From Candidatus Poribacteria bacterium (GTDB lineage: Bacteria; Poribacteria; WGA-4E; WGA-3G): DNA of 64,000 nt. The position numbers and the translations under genes were made by a program. The stretch lies in assembly GCA_022819945.1 (NCBI GenBank), contig JAJEGI010000115.1:1-64000 (forward strand), written 5' to 3'. Below are positions 32,263 through 45,847 of the stretch, piece after piece. Each line of letters starts with the position of its first letter. Position 1 is the first letter of the stretch. A model generated the notes under the pieces. That model had not been told where the DNA came from. It saw nothing but the letters and a program-made list of their open reading frames with translations, and did no database searches.

Positions 32263-33114
32263 CTAAACAAACCTTCCCTTATGCGGACTGGCTTCCCATT
32301 GGGCAGCCCAATCTTGCCACGACGTTGGACATCGTCGGGTTTCGCGTGCACGAGCCGGACACGCGATCGCTTCGTGCCAGAGTCGATCTAATGAGGTGCC
32401 AGTCGGGCTGAACCGAAAATCTACTGACCAACGGATGATGTCGCTGCGATTGAATAGCGACCGATGAAAGACGAGATTGTTGAAAACGAGTAAATCACCT
32501 TTTTTCATCTCTAAAGTATCAATCTCGGTATGGGATGAGGTAGGTGGGAGAACCGGAACGGCAAACGCTTCGCCGGGGACACGGTGATACGTCTGTAAAC
32601 CTGCTTTGTGGCTACCGGGTAAGAATTGCAAAGCACCATTCTCGGTTTTGACATCGACTAACGGTAGCCACACAGTCAGATGCGTATCGTTTTCGGTGTC
32701 CGGCATATACGCGCTGTCTTGGTGCCATGGAAGCGTGGTCAGTTTTTCGTTAGGGAGTTTCGGACGCACCCAAAAATCGCCGTTGAATTGAATATCGCTA
32801 CCGATAAGATGCTCAAGCACGTCCAGCACCTTGGGATGGGTTATCAGGTCAAAGAGTGCCTCGCTAAAGACAAGCGTATGCCAGCCAAAGACCTCGTTCT
32901 CCCGACCACACGCCTTTAGGATCGCATGCCAACGGTGTTCAAAAGGCAGGTCTTCATAGATGTCAGAGATGACCCCTTCGTTATAGAGTTCGGCGGCACG
33001 TTTGTTAACGACTTCAGAGACAACAGCAATTAACGGCGCGAGATCCACCTCACACAATGCCGATTTCACGACAAGATAGCCGTGTTCTGCAAATTTTTCA
33101 GAATTCGTTCCCAT
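32263..33114 (-). CDS. Phytanoyl-CoA dioxygenase (PhyH) family protein
   Basis: A 283-residue Fe(II)/2-oxoglutarate oxygenase. H131-x-D133 in PWHQDS and distal H217 in VFHRS make the iron triad, and Arg228 fits the 2-oxoglutarate contact. The substrate is unknown. It is not closely alike to the PhyH protein at 11637-12494. The ATG at 33114 has no clear ribosome binding site; it begins 6 bases after the stop of the LamG remnant, so it may rely on upstream transcription from the Gfo array. Confidence 0.88.
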   Translation of the reverse strand: MGTNSEKFAEHGYLVVKSALCEVDLAPLIAVVSEVVNKRAAELYNEGVISDIYEDLPFEHRWHAILKACGRENEVFGWHTLVFSEALFDLITHPKVLDVLEHLIGSDIQFNGDFWVRPKLPNEKLTTLPWHQDSAYMPDTENDTHLTVWLPLVDVKTENGALQFLPGSHKAGLQTYHRVPGEAFAVPVLPPTSSHTEIDTLEMKKGDLLVFNNLVFHRSLFNRSDIIRWSVDFRFSPTGTSLDRLWHEAIACPARARETRRCPTSWQDWAAQWEASPHKGRFV

Positions 33115-33120
33115 CGTTTT

Positions 33121-33315
33121 TTATCGGTACGCTTTTATCGCGCCCCAAACAGTTGTCAGTTTATCCTTTGGCCTCACAGGAAGCGGCTCCATCGATGCCT
33201 CAACAGAGATTGCTTCGTCCCAGAACGCTACATCGTCAACAGCACCCCCAAAATGGTTCTGACCATTACGACTCCCGATAGTGAAGGGGAGTCCTAAGGA
33301 GAACAAGCATCTATC
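33121..33315 (-). pseudogene. C-terminal remnant of a LamG-domain protein
   Basis: About 64 codons in one open frame encode the end of a LamG domain (TIGSRNGQNHFGGAVDD, then VAFWDEA) and the tail KLTTVWGAIKAYR. No start, signal peptide or N-terminal half exists. The frame continues directly and in phase from the TAG stop of the neighbouring Gfo/Idh/MocA gene (33316-33318). The N-terminal part was probably removed when the paralog array recombined into it. Confidence 0.75.
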
Positions 33316-34353
33316 CTACAACTTGGCACGCAGTTGATCCATCAACCCATCTGGCGGATCAAAAGGAAGATCAATCACTTCGTTGGTGATACCGCTATAG
33401 TAAATCCCCAAAAGCAGGTTGAACTCGGCGAGGGATTGTTCAAGATGCGTGGGATGCACCTTACTCTCGTCGTCAAGCCAATCAAAAACTGCTTCAGTAA
33501 GGTTGCCTTGTGCCGCGACATCCTGTTCGCCATAGTTTAGCGGACCGCCTTCATAGCCACCCTCTGGCGTTGAACGCTCCCAACTGCTGAACCGCCAATG
33601 TACAAAACCCTTCATCCCCACGACAAAGACACGCTTATGAAAAAAGACGACTGGATCATCGGATGCAGTCGGCGCGATGGCTGTCCCGAATGCGACAGAG
33701 ACGTGGAGTCCATTCTCATACTGGACGCGTGCGGATGCGTATTGCGGCGAAGGTTGTGCTGAATCTAAGTGTTCGCCGCCTGAGATTTGCCCCAACACAC
33801 GTACAGGACGCGAGTTATCAATATAAGAAGACACCAACTGGAGCACATGCGGACCTTGGTCAACTGGTGTGCTGCGTGCGCTGGCATCAATGAACTTAAT
33901 CTCACCGATCCGTCCTTCTGCGACATCCTGCTTTAATTCTAAATTTTGGGGGTGGAAGTTGAGCTGCGTATTGACAACGAACTTCGTTTTTGTCTCTTTG
34001 GAAAGTCCCGAAATTTGCTTCCAATCCTCACTTTCAACAGCAATCGGTTTTTCTACTATTGCCGCAGGTACACCGGCATCGGACGCCTGTTTCATCAACG
34101 GATAACGGATCCGTTCGTTGCTACCCCGTAGCACGGGTGCGGTGACGATATGGAGGACATCGGGTTTCTCTTTTTCAAGCATTTCATCAAGGTCGGTGTA
34201 GCGTGAAGAGATACCGAAGTCATCCCCGAATTTATTGAGTAGTTCTTCGTTCAGATCGCAGACGGCGGCGAGTTTACCACCTTTCACAAAGCGGTAGGCA
34301 TCAGCGTGTGCACGGGCGCGGCCACCACACCCTAACATCGCGGTTTTATACAC
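33316..34353 (-). CDS. Gfo/Idh/MocA oxidoreductase, tandem paralog 1
   Basis: A 345-residue NAD(P)-dependent dehydrogenase and the last gene of a five-copy array. The N-terminus has GCGGRARAH as the Rossmann turn, VEKPIAVES contains EKP, and the mid-protein GPHVLQL block holds the candidate catalytic His. The start is GTG at 34353, preceded by GGAG 8 bases away; the other copies use ATG. It differs most from its siblings in the segment after GTAIAP. It is separated from paralog 2 by a broken Rpn-like gene. The substrate is unknown, probably a sugar or derivative. Confidence 0.9.
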   Translation of the reverse strand: MYKTAMLGCGGRARAHADAYRFVKGGKLAAVCDLNEELLNKFGDDFGISSRYTDLDEMLEKEKPDVLHIVTAPVLRGSNERIRYPLMKQASDAGVPAAIVEKPIAVESEDWKQISGLSKETKTKFVVNTQLNFHPQNLELKQDVAEGRIGEIKFIDASARSTPVDQGPHVLQLVSSYIDNSRPVRVLGQISGGEHLDSAQPSPQYASARVQYENGLHVSVAFGTAIAPTASDDPVVFFHKRVFVVGMKGFVHWRFSSWERSTPEGGYEGGPLNYGEQDVAAQGNLTEAVFDWLDDESKVHPTHLEQSLAEFNLLLGIYYSGITNEVIDLPFDPPDGLMDQLRAKL

Positions 34354-34434
34354 AGAAATGTCTCCTTTAATATTTATAATATTTAAGTTCTGTAACGTTA
34401 AGCCAAAATAATTTGCCAAAAAAGACCGCACGTT

Positions 34435-35340
34435 TCATTCGCCATTTTCGCTCAACGCTTGCGTGAAATCTTCAGGAGTTTCTACTTGCATCGCGGCATC
34501 AAACAGATGTTCAAGGCACTGCAGATCCTCAATCGCATCCAGCGTTGATTTGAAGATCTGCGATGCGTCAAACTGGAATCGACGTGTCAGGATTCCAAGA
34601 ATGTGCTTGCGAGTAGTCTCTTGAGCACCTTGTTGAATTCCTTGTTGAATTCCTTGTTCACGTGCTTCTGGTGCTAAGTATTCAGCGATAGAAGATTGTT
34701 GCATGGTTTCCTCCGAAATAATCTCTAAAATCGTTTGCGCATCGTAGATTAAATTCCCCAAAACAGCGAGACTTCCAAGATACTCCGGCTTGTTCGGAAC
34801 ATCGATGTTATCAGCAGTTTGAACACAACGGCGAAGCCACTCTTCTTCATTCATACGCGCTGGAGGCTTCATGAGCGGGGTGAACGGTATCAATCCTACA
34901 GGTTTCAAATCAAGGATTTCTTGACCATCCATCTCAATGAGACGGAAAACCTGATACTCAATTGAAATATTATGACCTTCCAGATTTTGTGCAAATTTGC
35001 CTGGGTCGTTATTACCGGCATCAGGACGTAGGTAGATAACATTGGAATATACTGGTAACCGATAGACTTCAATCGCTCGAATAATATAGCCTGCCATTCG
35101 GAGCGGCATCTCAGGATCATAACTATCAGTAGTTTGAAACTCGAAATGCACAAGTACCTCTTGCCCATCGTGCAATGCTTTGATGAGCGTATCTGCTTGG
35201 TGCATCTCAACGGTAGGTTATTCAGGTGTAACGACCTCCAGTACAGTGATATTTGTTAAGCCGAATTTGAAGCAGAGGTTTACGAAATCCTGAGGGTTCG
35301 TTTCGATCTGTTTCTTAGAGGCAGTATCAAAACTTGCCAT
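34435..35340 (-). pseudogene. Rpn-like nuclease gene broken by one TAA
   Basis: From the ATG at 35340 (AAAGGAA upstream) 40 codons read to TAA at 35218-35220. The frame then continues without shift through 259 more codons to 34435. The protein resembles Rpn/PD-(D/E)xK transposase-like nucleases: HFEFQTTDSYDPEMP in the nuclease core and IQQGIQQG repeats near the end. A single CAA-to-TAA-type change explains the break. An internal ATG (codon 46) could give a 256-residue product lacking the N-terminus. It lies inside the Gfo/Idh/MocA array, so it probably inserted there. Confidence 0.75.
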
Positions 35341-35462
35341 CTTATTCCTTTCGGGGTTTTAGTGCTGCTTTCTTTGCAAATTATAGCATGTTTTGGGAGG
35401 TATGTCAATTTTTGGGATAGTTTGCGGCAAGCGATCACTCGCCTGCCGCTATGTTTGTCGGT

Positions 35463-36500
35463 TTATAACTGCTCTCGAAGCGAATCCATCAGACCATCTG
35501 GCGGTTCAAACGGGAGATCAATAATCTCGTTTGTGATTCCGCTGTAGTAAAGACCTAAGAGCAGGTTGAACTCTGCAAGGGACTGCTTGAGATGCGTCGG
35601 ATGCACGTTGTTTTCATCGTCGAGCCAGTCAAAGACCGCCTCAGTGAGGTTGCCCTGTGCAGCAATATCTTGTTCCCCATAATTCAGCGGACCGCCTTCG
35701 TAGCCACCCTCCGGAGTCGCGCGCTCCCAACTGCTGAAACGCCAATGCACAAAGCCCTTTGTTCCGACGACAAAGACACGTTTATGCGCAACAGTGCTTT
35801 CGCTGTCTGATGCCAACGTTCCCATACCTGTCCCAAATGCAAGCGAGACATGGAGACCGTTCTCATATATGGCTTGTCCAGCGGCATGCATTGGGGACGG
35901 CTGTGCGGACTCTAACTGATCTCTCCCAGCGATTTGACCGAGTACACGTACCGGACGTGAGTTGTCAATATAAGAGGACACCAACTGCAGCACGTGCGGT
36001 GCTTGGTCAACGGGTGTGCTGCGTGCGCTGGCATCAATAAACTTAATCTCACCGATTTTGCCTTCTGCGACATCGCGTTTTAATTCCAAGTTTTGGGGGT
36101 GGAAGTTAAGTTGCGTGTTGACGACGAACTTTGTTTGCGTCTCTTCCGCTAACCCAGCAATCTGTTTCCAATCCTCACTCTCAACGGCAATCGGTTTTTC
36201 GACGATCGCTGCTGGCACACCGTGATCGGATGCCTGTTTCATCAACGAATACCGAATCCGTTGGTTGGTCCCGCGTAGCACCGGTGCCGTGACGATGTGG
36301 AGGACATCCGGTTTTTCTTTCTCCAGCATCTCATCAAGGTCAGTGTAGCGCGAGGAAACGTCAAAGTCGTCTCCAAAACTGTTGAGTAACTCTTCATTCA
36401 TATCACAGATTGCAGCGATTTTGCCGCGCTTGACAAAACGGTAGGCACTTGCATGCGCACGGGCGCGACCCCCGCATCCTAAGAACGCTGTTTTATACAT
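35463..36500 (-). CDS. Gfo/Idh/MocA oxidoreductase, tandem paralog 2
   Basis: A 345-residue member of the five-copy array. GCGGRARAH, VEKPIAVES and the PHVLQL block are intact. Over its first 200 residues it differs from paralog 3 at only about nine positions, so the two are recent duplicates. Differences concentrate in the segment following GTGMGTLA. GGAG lies 8 bases before the ATG at 36500. The upstream gap to paralog 3 is 81 bases. Confidence 0.92.
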   Translation of the reverse strand: MYKTAFLGCGGRARAHASAYRFVKRGKIAAICDMNEELLNSFGDDFDVSSRYTDLDEMLEKEKPDVLHIVTAPVLRGTNQRIRYSLMKQASDHGVPAAIVEKPIAVESEDWKQIAGLAEETQTKFVVNTQLNFHPQNLELKRDVAEGKIGEIKFIDASARSTPVDQAPHVLQLVSSYIDNSRPVRVLGQIAGRDQLESAQPSPMHAAGQAIYENGLHVSLAFGTGMGTLASDSESTVAHKRVFVVGTKGFVHWRFSSWERATPEGGYEGGPLNYGEQDIAAQGNLTEAVFDWLDDENNVHPTHLKQSLAEFNLLLGLYYSGITNEIIDLPFEPPDGLMDSLREQL

Positions 36501-36581
36501 AAAAATATCTCCTTGAATACTATTTCCAATATCAGGCCAAAACGGGTTAGATGTTAACAGCGGAAAAGACAAGTTAACTTT

Positions 36582-37625
36582 TTAGAGTTTCTCTCGGAGT
36601 ATATCAATTAACCCATCCGGCGGTTCAAACGGGAGATCTATAATCTCATTTGTTACACCGCTGTAGTAGATGCCTAAAAGGAGGTTAAACTCCGCGAGCG
36701 ACTGCTTGAGATGTGTCGGATGCTGCTTGTTCTCGTCATCCAGCCAATCGAAAACGGCTTCCGTGAGGTTACCCTGCGCGACGACATCCTGCTCGCCGTA
36801 GTCAAGCGGGCCGCTTTCGTAACCACCCTCTGGTGTCGCACGTTCCCAACTGCTAAACCGCCAGTGCACGAACCCTTTCGTCCCGACGACAAAGACACGT
36901 TTGTGGGTGTGGTTCCCGGCATCCGGTTCTTTAGGTACTTTCTGTCCTAAACCTGTCCCGAACGCGAGGGAGACGTGAAGACCGTTTGCATATAAAGCCT
37001 GAGCGGCGGCATGCATCGGAGAGGGCTGCGTGGAATCCAAATCCTGACCGCCAGAAACCTGTCCGAGTACCCGCACCGGACGCGAGTTATCAATGTAGGA
37101 AGAGACGAGTTGCAACACATGCGGTGCTTGGTCAACAGGCGTGCTGCGTGCGCTGGCATCAATAAACTTGATTTCACCGATTCGGCCTTCTGCGACATCT
37201 CGCTTCAGTTCTAAGTTTTTCGGGTGAAAATTGAGTTGTGTGTTAACGACGAACTTCGTTTGCGTCTCTTCTGCTAATCCGGCGAGCTGCTTCCAGTCCT
37301 CGCTTTCAACGGCAATCGGCTTTTCCACAATCGCCGCTGGCACACCGTGATCCGATGCCTGCTTCATCAACGAATACCGAATACGCTGATTGGTCCCCCG
37401 TAGCACCGGGGCAGTGACAATATGCAGGACATCCGGTTTTTCCTTTTCAAGCATCGCATCCAAGTCGGTGTAGCGGGTTGAAACCCCAAAGTCGTCCCCG
37501 AAACTGTTGAGCAGTTCTTCGTTCATATCGCAAATTGCGGCGATTTTGCCGCGTTTGACGAAGCGGTAGGCATCCGCGTGCGCACGGGCACGCCCCCCAC
37601 ACCCTAAGAACGCAGTTTTGTACAT
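36582..37625 (-). CDS. Gfo/Idh/MocA oxidoreductase, tandem paralog 3
   Basis: A 347-residue member of the array with the same motifs. It carries a two-residue longer, distinct loop after GTGLGQ (KVPKEPDAGNHTHK) compared with its siblings. A GGAGAC leader precedes the ATG at 37625. The gap before paralog 4 contains the GCACGCCAGCAGCGC motif also found before paralog 4's own start, as expected for a tandem duplication unit. Confidence 0.92.
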   Translation of the reverse strand: MYKTAFLGCGGRARAHADAYRFVKRGKIAAICDMNEELLNSFGDDFGVSTRYTDLDAMLEKEKPDVLHIVTAPVLRGTNQRIRYSLMKQASDHGVPAAIVEKPIAVESEDWKQLAGLAEETQTKFVVNTQLNFHPKNLELKRDVAEGRIGEIKFIDASARSTPVDQAPHVLQLVSSYIDNSRPVRVLGQVSGGQDLDSTQPSPMHAAAQALYANGLHVSLAFGTGLGQKVPKEPDAGNHTHKRVFVVGTKGFVHWRFSSWERATPEGGYESGPLDYGEQDVVAQGNLTEAVFDWLDDENKQHPTHLKQSLAEFNLLLGIYYSGVTNEIIDLPFEPPDGLIDILREKL

Positions 37626-37732
37626 GAAAATGTCTCCTCTAATCTTAAAATAGCACGCCAGCAGCGCGCCAGAACTTAGCATCAGGTAAAGGCAGAGTGT
37701 CCTCAACCACAATACTGATCTATTTTATTAAA

Positions 37733-38770
37733 TCACAATCTTTCTCGAAGCGAGTCCATTAAGCCATCCGGTGGTTCAAATGGAAGGTCGATAATTTCGT
37801 TTGTGATTCCGCTGTAGTAAAGGCCTAAGAGCAGGTTGAACTCCGCAAGCGACTGCTTGAGGTGTGTCGGATGTACCTTGTTCTCGTCCTCCAACCAATC
37901 AAAGACAGCTTCGGTGAGGTTGCCTTGCGCAACGATGTTTTGATCACCATAGTTCAGCGGACCGCCTTCATAGCCACCCTCTTGTGTTGCGCGCTCCCAA
38001 CTCCTGAAACGCCAATGCACGAAACCCTTCGTTCCGACAACAAAGACGCGTTTGTGACCGTAGATACCCGGATTATCGGATGCCATTGTCCCCATGCCTG
38101 TCCCGAAGGCAACAGAGACGTGGAGCCCGTTCTCATACAAGACTTGTCCTGCGGCATGCATCGGAGACGGTTGATCTGAATCCAAACCCTCGCTGCCAGC
38201 GATTTGTCCAAGCACTCGCACGGGACGCGAGTTGTCAATGTAAGAGGACACTAATTGGAGCACATGCGGCCCCTGATCGACCGGTGTGCTACGCGCACTC
38301 GCATCAATGAACTTAATTTCACCGATACGTCCCTCTGCGACATCCTGTTTTAATTCCAGATTTTTTGGGTGAAAGTTGAGTTGTGTATTAACGGCAAACT
38401 TCGTTTTTGTTTCTTCCGCCAATCCCGCAATTTGCTTCCAATCTTCACTCTCAACGGCAATCGGTTTTTCGATAATCACTGCAGGTACACCCGCATCGGA
38501 CGCTTGTTTCATCAACGGATAACGGATGCGTTCACTCGTTCCACGCAACACCGGTGCCGTGACAATGTGCAGGACATCCGGCTTCTCTTTCTCAAGCATC
38601 TCGTCCAAGTCGGTGTAGCGGGATGAGATATTGAATTCGTCTCCAAATTCGTTGAGCCGTTCCTCGTTCATATCACAGATTGCAGCGACTTTGCCGCGTT
38701 TGACGAAGCGATACGCATTTGCGTGCGCACGGGCACGACCCCTGCACCCCAATATCGCGGTTTTATACAT
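37733..38770 (-). CDS. Gfo/Idh/MocA oxidoreductase, tandem paralog 4
   Basis: A 345-residue member of the array. The first glycine motif reads GCRGRARAH, so one Gly of the dinucleotide motif is replaced by Arg, which may weaken or alter cofactor binding. EKP and the PHVLQL block are intact. The variable segment is GTGMGTMASDNPGIYGHK, close to that of paralog 5. GAGAGGAAA precedes the ATG at 38770. Confidence 0.9.
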   Translation of the reverse strand: MYKTAILGCRGRARAHANAYRFVKRGKVAAICDMNEERLNEFGDEFNISSRYTDLDEMLEKEKPDVLHIVTAPVLRGTSERIRYPLMKQASDAGVPAVIIEKPIAVESEDWKQIAGLAEETKTKFAVNTQLNFHPKNLELKQDVAEGRIGEIKFIDASARSTPVDQGPHVLQLVSSYIDNSRPVRVLGQIAGSEGLDSDQPSPMHAAGQVLYENGLHVSVAFGTGMGTMASDNPGIYGHKRVFVVGTKGFVHWRFRSWERATQEGGYEGGPLNYGDQNIVAQGNLTEAVFDWLEDENKVHPTHLKQSLAEFNLLLGLYYSGITNEIIDLPFEPPDGLMDSLRERL

Positions 38771-38866
38771 AAAATCGTTTCCTCTCAATGTTAACAACAG
38801 CACGCCAGCAGCGCACCAAACGTAGAGCGGGCAAAGGCTGAAGCTCTTGCCTACAATATAGATAAA

Positions 38867-39910
38867 TTACAACTTCTCTCGGAGTGCATCCATTAACCCA
38901 TCGGGCGGATCAAATGGGAGGTCAACAATCTCGTTTGTTAGCCCGCTGTGGTACATCCCTAAGATGAGGTTATTCTCAACGAGGGATTGCTTGAGATGCG
39001 TCGGGTGCACCTGATTCTCATCTTCTAACCAATCAAAGATGGCTTCGGTGAAGTTAGCCTGTGCAACGACATCTTGCTCCCCGTAGTTCAGTGGACCGCC
39101 CTCATAACCCCCCTCCAATGTTGAACGTTCCCAGCTGCTGAAACGCCAATGTACGAAACCCTTCGTCCCGACAACAAACACACGTTTGTGACCGTAGATA
39201 CCCGGATCATCGGATGCCATTTGTGCCATCTCTGTTCCAAATGCGATAGAAACGTGGACACCGTTCTCATACAAAACCTGCGCGGCAGCATGCGTCGGAG
39301 AAGGATGCCCAGCAGGAGAATTTAAATGCTCGCTGCCAGCGATTTGTCCAAGCACCCGGATCGGATGTGCGTCATCAATGTAGGAAGACACCAACTGCAG
39401 CACATGTCCGCCCTGTTCGGCGGATCTACTCCGCGCACTGGCATCAATAAACTGAATCTCGCCGATCCGTCCTTCCGCGACATCCTGTTTTAACTCCAAG
39501 TTTTTCGGGTGGAAGTTGAGCTGCGTATTGACGACAAATTTCGTTTGCGTCTCTTCCGCTAATCCTGCAAGCTGCTTCCAATCCTCGCCTTCAATAGCGA
39601 CCGGTTTTTCAATAATCGCCGCAGGTACACCCGCATCGGACGCCTGTTTCATCAACGGATAACGAATCCGTTCATCGCTATTCGGAACCACAGGACTTGT
39701 GACGATATGCAGAACATCGGGTTTCTCTTTTTCAAGCATCGCGTCCAAGTCAGTGTAGCGTGAAGAGATACCGAAATCATCCCCGAAGGTGTTGAGTCGT
39801 GCTGCGTCCATATCGCAAATCGCGGCGAGTTTCCCACGTTTGACGAAGCGATACGCATCTGTGTGTCCACGGGCGCGACCGCCACACCCCAACATCGCAG
39901 TTTTGTACAT
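38867..39910 (-). CDS. Gfo/Idh/MocA oxidoreductase, tandem paralog 5
   Basis: A 347-residue protein and the first transcribed copy of the array. It has GCGGRARGH and IEKPVAIEG. The conserved STPVDQGPHVLQ block is changed to SRSAEQGGHVLQ, so it is the most diverged copy around the catalytic His. AAGGAGAC precedes the ATG at 39910. About 120 bases separate it from the sixth, distantly related Gfo/Idh/MocA gene upstream. Confidence 0.9.
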   Translation of the reverse strand: MYKTAMLGCGGRARGHTDAYRFVKRGKLAAICDMDAARLNTFGDDFGISSRYTDLDAMLEKEKPDVLHIVTSPVVPNSDERIRYPLMKQASDAGVPAAIIEKPVAIEGEDWKQLAGLAEETQTKFVVNTQLNFHPKNLELKQDVAEGRIGEIQFIDASARSRSAEQGGHVLQLVSSYIDDAHPIRVLGQIAGSEHLNSPAGHPSPTHAAAQVLYENGVHVSIAFGTEMAQMASDDPGIYGHKRVFVVGTKGFVHWRFSSWERSTLEGGYEGGPLNYGEQDVVAQANFTEAIFDWLEDENQVHPTHLKQSLVENNLILGMYHSGLTNEIVDLPFDPPDGLMDALREKL

Positions 39911-40032: not shown

Positions 40033-41073
40033 CTACGCGGAGATGTCCACTTTCTCGCCGCTTTTTGCGCTGTCGTAAAACGCATCCAAGATTTGCATGA
40101 AAGTATACGCATCCGGCGCAGAAACATCGGGGGCAACCTCTCCCGCGATCGCCATGCCGAAGTGGTTGAGTTCGTAGTAAAAGACATGCACCTCTTCAGG
40201 GAGTTCACCGTGATCAATCTCAAGCGGTTCATCAATGGCTTCTCGGACAAATTCACCGTCTTTGAAGCGCGATATACCGCCGTTTGTGATTGCGCCGGTC
40301 GTGCCGTAAAGCTCTACGACGCTCCCAGAATCGGAATGGCTCATCCGGGAGCAGTCGATCTGAATCGTTTTCCCACCTTCGCATCCGAGGAGACCCGTGA
40401 AATAGTCTTCCGCTGCGCCTTCAGGTCCATCATATTGTGGATAAAGCACGTGCTTCGCAGCAAACGCCCATTCCGGTTTCGGGCACCCCATCCACCACCA
40501 CGTCAAGTTGAGTTCGTGCGAGTAGTGCTGCCCTAACGAACCGCCTTTCTGTCCGTAGACATGCAACCAGCGACTGTTATCGTCGAAGTCTGGGATAAAG
40601 TTATATTTCCCGAAGACGCGAGCGTGATACAGGTCGCCGATTGCACCGTTCAGGACGGCGCGCCGAATCTTCCGGTTATTTGGGAAATGGCGCATAAAAT
40701 AGCAGAATTGAAGGGTTTTGCCGGATTGTTGTGCCGCTGCCTCCATCTCTAAAATTTCGGGGGCGCGGATGGCGTGCGGCTTTTGCACCAAGACGTGTTT
40801 ACCCGCATTGAGCGTATCCAGCACCTGTTGCAGTCTACCATCGGGAGAAGTCGCGAGATAGACGGCTTCAACAGCCGGATCGTTAAGGAGTTCGTGATAG
40901 TCGGCGTAGCGATGCGGGACTGCACTCTCATCTCCTGCTTCCGCACGACGAACAGGATCGCGCTCCGCAATCGCAATAACGTTTAGGCGAGAGGTGGCGT
41001 TGGCAGCTTGGATAGCTTGACGACCTGCCCATCCGCATCCAACGACACCGAGTTGTGTAATTTGATTCGTCAT
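40033..41073 (-). CDS. Gfo/Idh/MocA family oxidoreductase (divergent)
   Basis: A 346-residue NAD(P)-dependent dehydrogenase of the same superfamily but not of the tandem clade. The Rossmann turn reads GCGWAGRQA and the usual EKP is QKP in LVQKPHA. A Trp/His-rich stretch (SHELNLTWWWMG) marks its substrate domain. GGAGG lies 8 bases before the ATG at 41073. It is upstream of the array on the same strand and may be cotranscribed with it. Confidence 0.88.
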   Translation of the reverse strand: MTNQITQLGVVGCGWAGRQAIQAANATSRLNVIAIAERDPVRRAEAGDESAVPHRYADYHELLNDPAVEAVYLATSPDGRLQQVLDTLNAGKHVLVQKPHAIRAPEILEMEAAAQQSGKTLQFCYFMRHFPNNRKIRRAVLNGAIGDLYHARVFGKYNFIPDFDDNSRWLHVYGQKGGSLGQHYSHELNLTWWWMGCPKPEWAFAAKHVLYPQYDGPEGAAEDYFTGLLGCEGGKTIQIDCSRMSHSDSGSVVELYGTTGAITNGGISRFKDGEFVREAIDEPLEIDHGELPEEVHVFYYELNHFGMAIAGEVAPDVSAPDAYTFMQILDAFYDSAKSGEKVDISA

Positions 41074-41120: not shown

Positions 41121-41891
41121 TTAGAACATATTCGGCAATTCTGCAATGCTATTAAGCACCCACGTTGGCTCCGCGACCGGGTTTTTCAACTGATTGGGTT
41201 TAAACTTCCCAGTTTTGATAAGAATACTCCGCATCTTCATGTTTTCCGCACCGACTATATCGGAAGTGATGTCGTCGCCTATCACAACTACCTCACTTGG
41301 CGAGCATTGAAGACTCTCAAGCGCGATTTTGAAGAATGTTTCACTCGGCTTGCCCATCACGGTTGCGGTTTTGCCCGCGGCTGCTTCCAGAAGCGTCACG
41401 AAGGCACCACAATCCAAGAACATCCCTTCAGCAGAAAACCAATAGAGATTCTTCTGCAATGCTATCAGTTCAGCACCATCCATGAGTAGACGAAAAGCGT
41501 GATTTAAAACGTGAAAATCAAACCCCTCGCCGTAGTCCCCAACAACGACAAAATCCGGTGTATCGTCATCTACGGGTATCTCCTTGAAAAACGCTTTCAC
41601 GGCATCATCGACCATAAAGTGGCAACTTGCGCCAGGCTGCGAGCGTAAGTACTGGAGACAGGCGTAAGTTGCATTAAAGATCTCATCTTCGTAGATGTCG
41701 AAACCGAGTGCTTGCATCTGTTCGTGAAGCATCTTTGGCGTTTTGGCAGTCGTATTCGTCAGGAATCGGAGTTGATAGTTCTCCCGCCGTAGGTAGTTCA
41801 CAACATCAATTGCGCCAGGGCAAGGCTCGCCCTTAAAATAGAGCGTTCCATCCATGTCAATCAAAAAAGCGTTAGGCTGTGTTGGTCTCAT
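41121..41891 (-). CDS. HAD-superfamily phosphatase (subclass IIA, NagD/LHPP-like)
   Basis: A 256-residue haloacid-dehalogenase phosphatase. The nucleophile motif DMDGT is at 12-16. TNTT supplies motif II, GKPSETFF the motif III lysine, and GDDITSD motif IV. The cap type is C2, as in NagD, p-nitrophenyl phosphatases and human LHPP. The substrate is unknown. It lies 24 bases downstream of the solute-binding lipoprotein gene on the same strand. Confidence 0.9.
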   Translation of the reverse strand: MRPTQPNAFLIDMDGTLYFKGEPCPGAIDVVNYLRRENYQLRFLTNTTAKTPKMLHEQMQALGFDIYEDEIFNATYACLQYLRSQPGASCHFMVDDAVKAFFKEIPVDDDTPDFVVVGDYGEGFDFHVLNHAFRLLMDGAELIALQKNLYWFSAEGMFLDCGAFVTLLEAAAGKTATVMGKPSETFFKIALESLQCSPSEVVVIGDDITSDIVGAENMKMRSILIKTGKFKPNQLKNPVAEPTWVLNSIAELPNMF

Positions 41892-41914: not shown

Positions 41915-43096
41915 TTAGGGTTCCACAACCTTGTAGTGTTCAACCTGCCCGCCACTAATTTTCTGGATTGTGAGGCTTTTGACAGGGTGTCGGTTCGCGT
42001 CGTAATGCGAAATAGTTGTCGCCCCTTTGTAACCACTGACTGCAGCGAATGCGTCCCGAACTGCAACCGGATCAAGCGAACCCGCTGTCTCTATCGCCAA
42101 TGCTAAAAGCCGCATTGCATCGTAGCCCGACGCGGCGATGCCGTCCGGTGGACTTCCGAAGAGTACGTTGTAAGCCATCACAAATTCCTGAACATTTGGG
42201 TCTTGTGTAGCAACCGAGAAATTGGTCGGATAGTAGCTGCCATCCAAAACACTGTTATCGTCTAATATGCTGAGGAATCGTTCCCTGTCATCCCACGCGC
42301 TGCCACCGAGAAAAGTCCCTGTGATACCGATTTGCCGCGCTTCGTTGATCAAGGATGGTACTTCTGGCTGAAAACCGGGACAGAAGATAACATCAGGCAC
42401 TGCCTCGTGAATTTCTGTAAGCAGTGCGGTGAAGTTGGTATCGCCTACGGTATAGGCACCGCTATAGACGATTTCTCCACCATTTGCCTGAAAAGCCTCC
42501 TCGAATGCCGCTACAAGATCTATCGTATAGGCATCGCCTTCCTCAATAATAGTTGCTGCTGTTGTGGCATCGAGTTCGTCAGGATTCATTGCGAAACTCG
42601 CCATCACCTTCCCTTGAAACGGGTTTGGCACCGTAATAAGGAACACATAATCTCCAGTTTCAGGGACGTTTGAACCGCTGGAACCGGGCAGCATGAGTCG
42701 TTGTGCCTGTTGCGCAATAGGACCCACTTCAACAGCATTCGTGGAATAAACAGGCCCTAAGAGTGCGAAAACGGCTTCCATCTCAATAAGTTCTTTCGCT
42801 GCGCTGACACTCGCTTCTGGCGTTGGGGGTTCGCTCGCGATGGGTTGATTGTTTCGAGTGATAAATTCTACTTCCATACCGAGCACACCACCCTTTTCAT
42901 TAATTTGGACGCGAGCGGTTTCAGCCCCTTGGCTAAAGGTTGTAAAGGTATTGGCGGGTTGAATCACACCTATCTTTAACGCCACTTCTGTCGGTGGAGT
43001 TGGGGTTTCGGGTTGAACCATCTCACCGACTCGTTCACATCCTGTCAAGGCGGCGAGTAGAATAGCCGAAATTAAGATAAAAATTCTCATAGACAT
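41915..43096 (-). CDS. Branched-chain amino acid-type ABC solute-binding lipoprotein
   Basis: A 393-residue periplasmic-binding (Peripla_BP_6/LivJ-like) lipoprotein. The lipobox LTGC places the lipidated Cys at residue 20. A Pro/Thr-rich linker follows, then KIGVIQPANTF and the two-lobe domain with LLGPVYSTNA and PGFQPE. It should bind a small ligand outside the membrane, but no permease or ATPase genes lie nearby. A promoter is at 43182-43210. GGAG lies 12 bases upstream of the ATG; a second ATG two codons later is also possible. Confidence 0.85.
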   Translation of the reverse strand: MSMRIFILISAILLAALTGCERVGEMVQPETPTPPTEVALKIGVIQPANTFTTFSQGAETARVQINEKGGVLGMEVEFITRNNQPIASEPPTPEASVSAAKELIEMEAVFALLGPVYSTNAVEVGPIAQQAQRLMLPGSSGSNVPETGDYVFLITVPNPFQGKVMASFAMNPDELDATTAATIIEEGDAYTIDLVAAFEEAFQANGGEIVYSGAYTVGDTNFTALLTEIHEAVPDVIFCPGFQPEVPSLINEARQIGITGTFLGGSAWDDRERFLSILDDNSVLDGSYYPTNFSVATQDPNVQEFVMAYNVLFGSPPDGIAASGYDAMRLLALAIETAGSLDPVAVRDAFAAVSGYKGATTISHYDANRHPVKSLTIQKISGGQVEHYKVVEP

Positions 43097-44508: not shown

Positions 44509-44605
44509 GCAAGAACATAGCAGGGCAACAACGGAGCACTGCAGATATACGGAACTACACTTGAAATCTCGTACTCACCTTACCGAACCGCGAGGAAATA
44601 TAAAA

Positions 44606-45847
44606 ATGCTCATGGCAGGTGCTGCAGAAACACCCATTACCGCTATAAAGGACAAACCCGAAGTCTATGCCGAGTTGTATGCCCGCGCGTTAGTGCTTGC
44701 CGATGGCGAAAAGCAACTTGCCATTGTGACTGCCGACTACGGTCAGTTCCCGCTTCAATACAATAAAGTGCTGCTCGACGCGATTGCGAATGCTACAGGC
44801 ATACCACCAGAGCATGTCGTCATCAACTGTAGCCATACACATAATGCCCCGGGTGTTGATGGACGGTCAATAACCGAGGCATCCGAGACGTGGTTAGCGA
44901 ACTGCCTCGCCGGGTTGGTGAAAGATGCAGTAGGTGCACTTGAACCTGCGACCTTGCGCGTCGGGCGCGCGCCTGTCCAAATCGGTTATAACCGTCGCCT
45001 GATGAATGATGAAGGTTATATTACAATGGCACCGAACCCGGAAGGCTCTGTTGTGCCGTGGGTTGATGTGTTAGGGGCTTATGACGAAAACGGACAGATT
45101 ATCGCTGTACTGTTCTCACATGCTGCGCATCCGGTGATTGTCCATTGGTCGAGCGAAGAGATCGGTGCCGATTATCCCGGATACGCCGTTGAACATCTGC
45201 GCAACTTCTTGGATCTGAAGCCGGAAAGCGTTTTGCTATTTGCCCAAGGCTGCGCGGCGGATATTAACGGGTATCCGTTGCGAGGGGGGTTCAGTGCATG
45301 CGATGTCGCCGGGTTCGCACTTGCATTTGCGACACATCAAGCCTTAAAGATTGCAGAGGAAATTCCTGCAGCACCGCTTAAAGCGCGTTCGAGACTTGTC
45401 AATTTGCCGTTCCGAGATCCGCCATCGGTTGCGGAGTGCGAGCAGTTAATAAAAGAATTCCCTGACGATGAACGCTACGTCGACTTGTTAGAAGTCGCTA
45501 AAAGTGGTGAAAAACGCACCTTACCTTTTCCAATGCGTGCATTTGCGGTCGGCGACGCGCTCTGCTTCCTATCTGTATCCCATGAACTCTTTTCGGAGTA
45601 CCAACTTTTTGCTGACGAAACATCGCCGTTCTCACACACCTTTGTTTTCGGATACACAAATGGCAGTGAAGTCTATATTGCGACCAAAGCGGCTTACGAT
45701 TTGGGATTGCGAGGGGGTTATGAAGCGGGACCGCGGAATCATGCGCTTAGTGGGCCTTACCGGTTGGCGTTGTTGCCGTCAGTTGAAGCACAAATTCAGG
45801 CAGAGATAAGGAATCTGTTAGAAGCAACTACGGTAAAGCACCTATAG
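44606..45847 (+). CDS. Neutral/alkaline ceramidase-like protein
   Basis: A 413-residue protein resembling the N-terminal domain of neutral ceramidases (PF04734-like). The zinc-site motif HTHNAPG is at 77-83 and SHAAHP is found downstream. It starts MAGAAETPIT-like, matching the family N-terminus. There is no signal peptide, so a cytoplasmic hydrolase role is likely, on an unknown substrate. The ATG at 44606 follows GAGGAA by 8 bases. An earlier in-frame ATG at 44561 is rejected because it lies in the repeated leader. Confidence 0.78.
   Translation: MLMAGAAETPITAIKDKPEVYAELYARALVLADGEKQLAIVTADYGQFPLQYNKVLLDAIANATGIPPEHVVINCSHTHNAPGVDGRSITEASETWLANCLAGLVKDAVGALEPATLRVGRAPVQIGYNRRLMNDEGYITMAPNPEGSVVPWVDVLGAYDENGQIIAVLFSHAAHPVIVHWSSEEIGADYPGYAVEHLRNFLDLKPESVLLFAQGCAADINGYPLRGGFSACDVAGFALAFATHQALKIAEEIPAAPLKARSRLVNLPFRDPPSVAECEQLIKEFPDDERYVDLLEVAKSGEKRTLPFPMRAFAVGDALCFLSVSHELFSEYQLFADETSPFSHTFVFGYTNGSEVYIATKAAYDLGLRGGYEAGPRNHALSGPYRLALLPSVEAQIQAEIRNLLEATTVKHL

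Follow-up and report, generated by a model that had tools for sequence, protein, structure and literature searches.

Closest described oxidoreductases and the layout of the array

The Gfo/Idh/MocA oxidoreductases (PF01408, PF22725) are characterized by an N-terminal Rossmann domain, an EKP lysine, a DxxxH-type histidine motif and a two-domain fold. All of these are shared by five proteins encoded in a 64,000-nucleotide stretch of DNA (the window) from a sponge-associated Candidatus Poribacteria MAG, a draft genome of 5.8 Mb in 182 contigs, whose nearest relatives among named records are also Candidatus Poribacteria MAGs. The five proteins, here called A to E, differ from the described family in their C-terminal domain, which matched PF22725 weakly, below the cut-off of 27 bits, in the two copies scanned (22.8 and 19.6 bits). 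The best PDB sequence match was to the glycoside 3-dehydrogenases DgpA/DgpA1 (7xr9, 9m3d; profile E 3e-30), which were also among the top fold matches, yet at about 20% identity; no DgpB/DgpC-like gene is evident among the neighbours. Other top fold matches were an Agrobacterium radiobacter oxidoreductase (5uhw) and the SqgA-type NAD-dependent sulfoquinovosidases (8qc2, 8qc6), both with a TM of about 0.76 and 14–21% identity.

The AlphaFold models of D and E were confidently folded, their best PDB matches were sugar-type oxidoreductases, and the fold matches extended over the whole protein length. The best structural matches, many of them sugar, glycoside or cyclitol oxidoreductases, had TM values of about 0.65–0.80 but were only 14–22% identical, and the substrate is therefore not transferable from them. 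Attempts to name a substrate from NCBIfam, the PDB or the neighbouring genes failed; no NCBIfam equivalog came near its own cut-off for the array proteins, and myo-inositol 2-dehydrogenase IolG (TIGR04380) was rejected at 54.1 bits against a cut-off of 355.

A poribacterial single-cell genome study from 2014 reported many PhyH-domain genes in poribacterial genomes (PMC3909097), and a PhyH gene likewise flanks the array described here; the words dehydrogenase and oxidoreductase do not occur in the main text of that paper. A literature search found no paper describing the array, which is weak evidence given that many papers in subscription journals lie outside such a search. The features of the locus are as follows.

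32263..33114, minus strand: PhyH-type 2-oxoglutarate oxygenase, conserved neighbour downstream of A (PF05721, E 3e-28; synteny)
33316..34353, minus strand: copy A, Gfo/Idh/MocA-type oxidoreductase, 345 aa, GTG start (PF01408, E 4.7e-15; tree group A)
34435..35205, minus strand: insert ORF, 256 aa, weakly like an Rpn-family recombination-promoting nuclease/transposase (TIGR01784, 20.3 bits against a cut-off of 52.1)
35380..35408, minus strand: promoter-like site preceding both the insert ORF and copy A (sigma-70-type consensus match only, 12 of 12 bases)
35463..36500, minus strand: copy B, 345 aa (ortholog group B in the tree)
36582..37625, minus strand: copy C, 347 aa, with a 2-residue insert (ortholog group C; own sequence in the 225–238 loop)
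37733..38770, minus strand: copy D, 345 aa, with Arg10 and Ile6 (accessory ortholog group D; AlphaFold pLDDT 95.5)
38867..39910, minus strand: copy E, 347 aa, with Glu165 (fastest-evolving ortholog group; AlphaFold pLDDT 94.3)
40033..41073, minus strand: distant Gfo/Idh/MocA gene, the sixth, conserved neighbour upstream of E (PF01408 and PF02894; synteny)
41121..41891, minus strand: HAD-type hydrolase, conserved neighbour (PF13344/PF13242; synteny)
41915..43096, minus strand: periplasmic binding protein-like gene, conserved neighbour, likely the first of the run (PF13458; synteny)

The initial annotation described a five-copy tandem array of same-strand genes of 345–347 codons. Five such minus-strand coding sequences were found, all matching one another over their full length and all matching PF01408 (hmmscan, 56.8 bits for A and 60.2 for E; genome search, 62–70 bits for B, C and D; cut-off 24). 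They do not, however, form an uninterrupted run. The spacers between B, C, D and E measure 81–107 bp, whereas the gap between A and B is 1,109 bp and contains a separate ORF (34435–35205); because this ORF and a promoter-like match separate A from B, the array is best described as a run of four plus one. The promoter-like site in the gap consists of TTGACA, a spacing of 17 nucleotides with TG before the second hexamer, and TATAAT (an extended -10), and a further site upstream of the binding protein-like gene (43210–43182) matched 10 of 12 consensus bases. The start regions and intergenic motif that were said to be common to the copies were confirmed as a ribosome-binding-site-like AGGAGAYA and as GCGCTGCTGGCGTGCT, the latter found upstream of C and of D.

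Several other genes were observed around the array. Between A and the PhyH gene (33115–33315, minus strand) lies a LamG-type gene remnant of ~65 codons, truncated in the window genome; it matches almost exactly the C-terminal end of a gene that is intact at the same place in two relatives (L048, L059). A weakly neutral ceramidase-like protein (PF04734, below cut-off) is encoded at 44561–45847 on the plus strand and is kept near the array in relatives, and the window additionally carries xylose-isomerase-like and PhyH genes.

Divergence between the copies

Pairwise comparison of A to E gave protein identities of 76–88% and DNA identities of 74–80%, with dN/dS between 0.035 and 0.10 and dS between 1.2 and 3.1. 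Because silent sites are saturated (dS above 1.2), the five copies are old duplicates. Whichever 20-codon window was taken, third-position differences amounted to 0.39–0.58, and identical DNA stretches reached at most 32 bases for any pair of copies. The most variable stretch covered aligned columns 181–240, with a peak at 221–240. Over the first 200 aligned residues the closest pair, B and C, differed at 13 positions, rather than the nine or so reported earlier for copies 2 and 3, and all other pairs at 23–45; the term near-identical N-terminal halves is thus too strong and applies, loosely, to B and C only. As judged from these alignments, the likeness of the copies sits at the protein level and is held there by selection.

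The codon comparison and dN/dS estimates proposed in the initial annotation, with their saturated dS, speak against recent amplification. Recent tandem amplification was rejected on this dS range, the lack of near-identical copies among A to E and the presence of ortholog groups across species. Gene conversion keeping the N-terminal halves alike was also rejected, as no converted tract was found and the longest common run was only 32 bases.

The same divergence bears on the assembly. Collapse or expansion of repeats might be suspected in a draft MAG of 182 contigs, but the copies differ from one another at 20–26% of bases, and the same arrays occur in five congeners with single-contig genomes (L062, L063, L064, L066 and L074) as well as on contigs from many independent assemblies. 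The worry raised earlier is unfounded, and an artefact of this kind is hardly credible.

Ortholog groups and conservation of the locus

To place the copies among their relatives, a FastTree phylogeny of 222 distinct copies and a rooted maximum-likelihood tree of 108 rows, drawn from a wider sample, were used. In the 222-copy tree A, B, C, D and E fall into five separate ortholog groups. Groups A (40 sequences), C and E each include several genera of the family and predate the genus split; group B is confined to the level of the genus, its related groups F and H lying elsewhere, and group D (12 sequences) lies within the genus. Further groups (F, H and I) were found in sister genera. Copy D is 92–97% identical to its orthologs in other members of the genus, clearly more than the 80–87% it has with the four copies beside it. 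The median dN/dS within groups was 0.02–0.04, rising to 0.106 in E and 0.089 in I, and each ortholog group is thus under strong purifying selection.

All array members formed one clade in the 108-row tree (SH-aLRT 100). A further copy, 70% identical and located on another contig (C127) of the window genome, fell outside this clade together with its orthologs. In the 222-copy tree, which had a single very distant outgroup, the group of this paralog stood beside A on a long branch; the placement in the wider 108-row tree was preferred. The array thus originated by tandem duplication in the lineage leading to this family of Poribacteria, once it had split from the dispersed 70% paralog.

The surroundings of the array are conserved across the family, and nearly all relatives have it at this place: the binding protein gene comes first, followed by the HAD hydrolase and the distant Gfo gene, then by the array with two to six copies, and last by PhyH. 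Comparison of copy number, suggested in the initial annotation, gave this family range and four copies in each of the five single-contig congeners. The order of the copies in relatives varies (E-D-C-B-A, E-C-B-A and E-B-C-A). One relative, L059, carries A, B and C at 97–99% identity to those of the window but is without D, and its E–C spacer resembles the D–C spacer of the window. The history is one of birth and death of tandem copies, with a core that stays stable: at one fixed place copies have come and gone, while individual ones settled into stable ortholog groups under purifying selection. New copies may arise and vanish through unequal recombination between neighbours.

The ORF between A and B may be relevant to this process. 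It matched DUF4351 at an E of 0.16 and has eight matches in its own genome, itself included (seven further). Rpn-like ORFs occupy different array gaps in different relatives (L091, L076 and L081), with up to four tblastn segments within one array gap in L091. Because its homologs occupy several different gaps, mobility is suggested; on these sequence matches the Rpn-like ORF is a likely mobile element, and such an element may promote rearrangement of the array.

The array had been called uncommon, which holds in a relative sense only, as close homologs were found in every member of the genus searched and the same genome carries a second tandem trio. This trio of Gfo/Idh/MocA genes (contig C36, 13500–17900; locus L141) belongs to a different subfamily, with 82–92% protein identity. 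In another relative (G001) array copies were located on two contigs (C24 and C32), with 11 matches in all, which could represent either a second array or a mixture of strains in the bin. Around the homolog in order-level and more distant relatives the array neighbours were not found, except as weak PhyH, SDR or LamG matches, and this context therefore gives no clue to an ancestral pathway.

Dosage selection had been offered as one reason for the array, the five copies being kept since more of the same enzyme was favoured. The common strand, the 81–107 bp spacers from B to E and a conserved upstream run that is maybe one operon are compatible with such a function. However, silent sites are saturated and long identical runs are lacking, the copies group by ortholog across species and not by genome, their number is steady at four in the single-contig congeners, and positions of the cofactor and catalytic motifs carry differences that are fixed between groups. 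Dosage is not supported by these results; it is already largely refuted and is regarded as very unlikely.

Group-fixed residues and probable specialization of the copies

Residues were considered diagnostic when fixed in one of the five groups (A–E) and absent from the others. Of the 14 diagnostic residues of A, B and C, 12 lie within positions 225–238 (hypergeometric P about 2e-18), which in the predicted structure of D form a connection between two C-terminal sheet strands. E101, K102, P103 and H169 are present in every member of all nine groups, and Asp33, at the end of strand 2, presumably indicates NAD rather than NADP by the general Rossmann rule. The GxGxxG/A cofactor loop is intact in A, B, C and E. 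In group D the second glycine of GxGxxG is replaced by arginine (G10R, 12/12 sequences). The aspartate of the DxxxH motif is replaced by glutamate in group E (D165E, 38/38) and by asparagine in group I of the sister genera (D165N, 12/12). Deeper homologs have Gly or Ala at position 165, and so a change of D165 may matter less than the motif suggests.

Arg10 has at least three origins on the tree, and Ile6 accompanies it in 28 of 28 Arg10 sequences. A chimeric origin of D with an Arg10 lineage was rejected, since windowed identities were nowhere nearest to the Arg10 outgroups; in these comparisons Arg10 in D looks like a parallel change and not recombination.

Gfo/Idh/MocA enzymes commonly form oligomers, and D, possibly also E, could be a regulatory or structural subunit in mixed oligomers with A to C, in which case some of the paralogs would be partly non-catalytic. 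The invariable arginine of group D, its intact predicted fold and its strong purifying selection are consistent with this proposal. Against it, D retains Asp33, Lys102, Asp165 and His169, and GCRGRG and GCRSRG, with arginine at the same place, are found in other Gfo proteins that this genome encodes outside the array, because of which Arg10 is likely compatible with cofactor binding. Non-catalytic subunits are unlikely. Also unlikely is a further reading, that the copies are enzymes or subunits tuned in different ways and that the repeated change to Arg10, always with Ile6, created a class of cofactor loop which differs in its use of the cofactor, or serves as an oxidoreductase with bound cofactor, in concert with the ordinary copies.

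The explanation that we favour, with reasonable confidence, is an old family of tandem Gfo/Idh/MocA dehydrogenases, of NAD type, with specialized members. A to E are predicted sister enzymes that diverged long ago and are conserved separately; they are not the product of recent amplification and are probably specialized. If active, the copies would differ in their specificity for related sugars, cyclitols or glycosides. This specificity may be set mainly by the C-terminal-domain loop at 225–238, and the cofactor-loop or catalytic chemistry may be altered in D and E. The substrate diversification proposed earlier is supported indirectly, as functional diversification in general, by the ortholog groups and the group-fixed changes; drift and lineage sorting can also produce group-fixed residues.

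The evolution of tandem paralog families by birth and death is an already known process, of which the array on its own is a well-kept case. Five to eight aligned paralogs that separated long ago share a single locus here, and they provide a natural series in a phylum of uncultured sponge symbionts; the window genome alone holds about a hundred such dehydrogenases (about 108 PF01408 matches). The diagnostic loop, together with G10R and D165E/N, points to residues worth testing.
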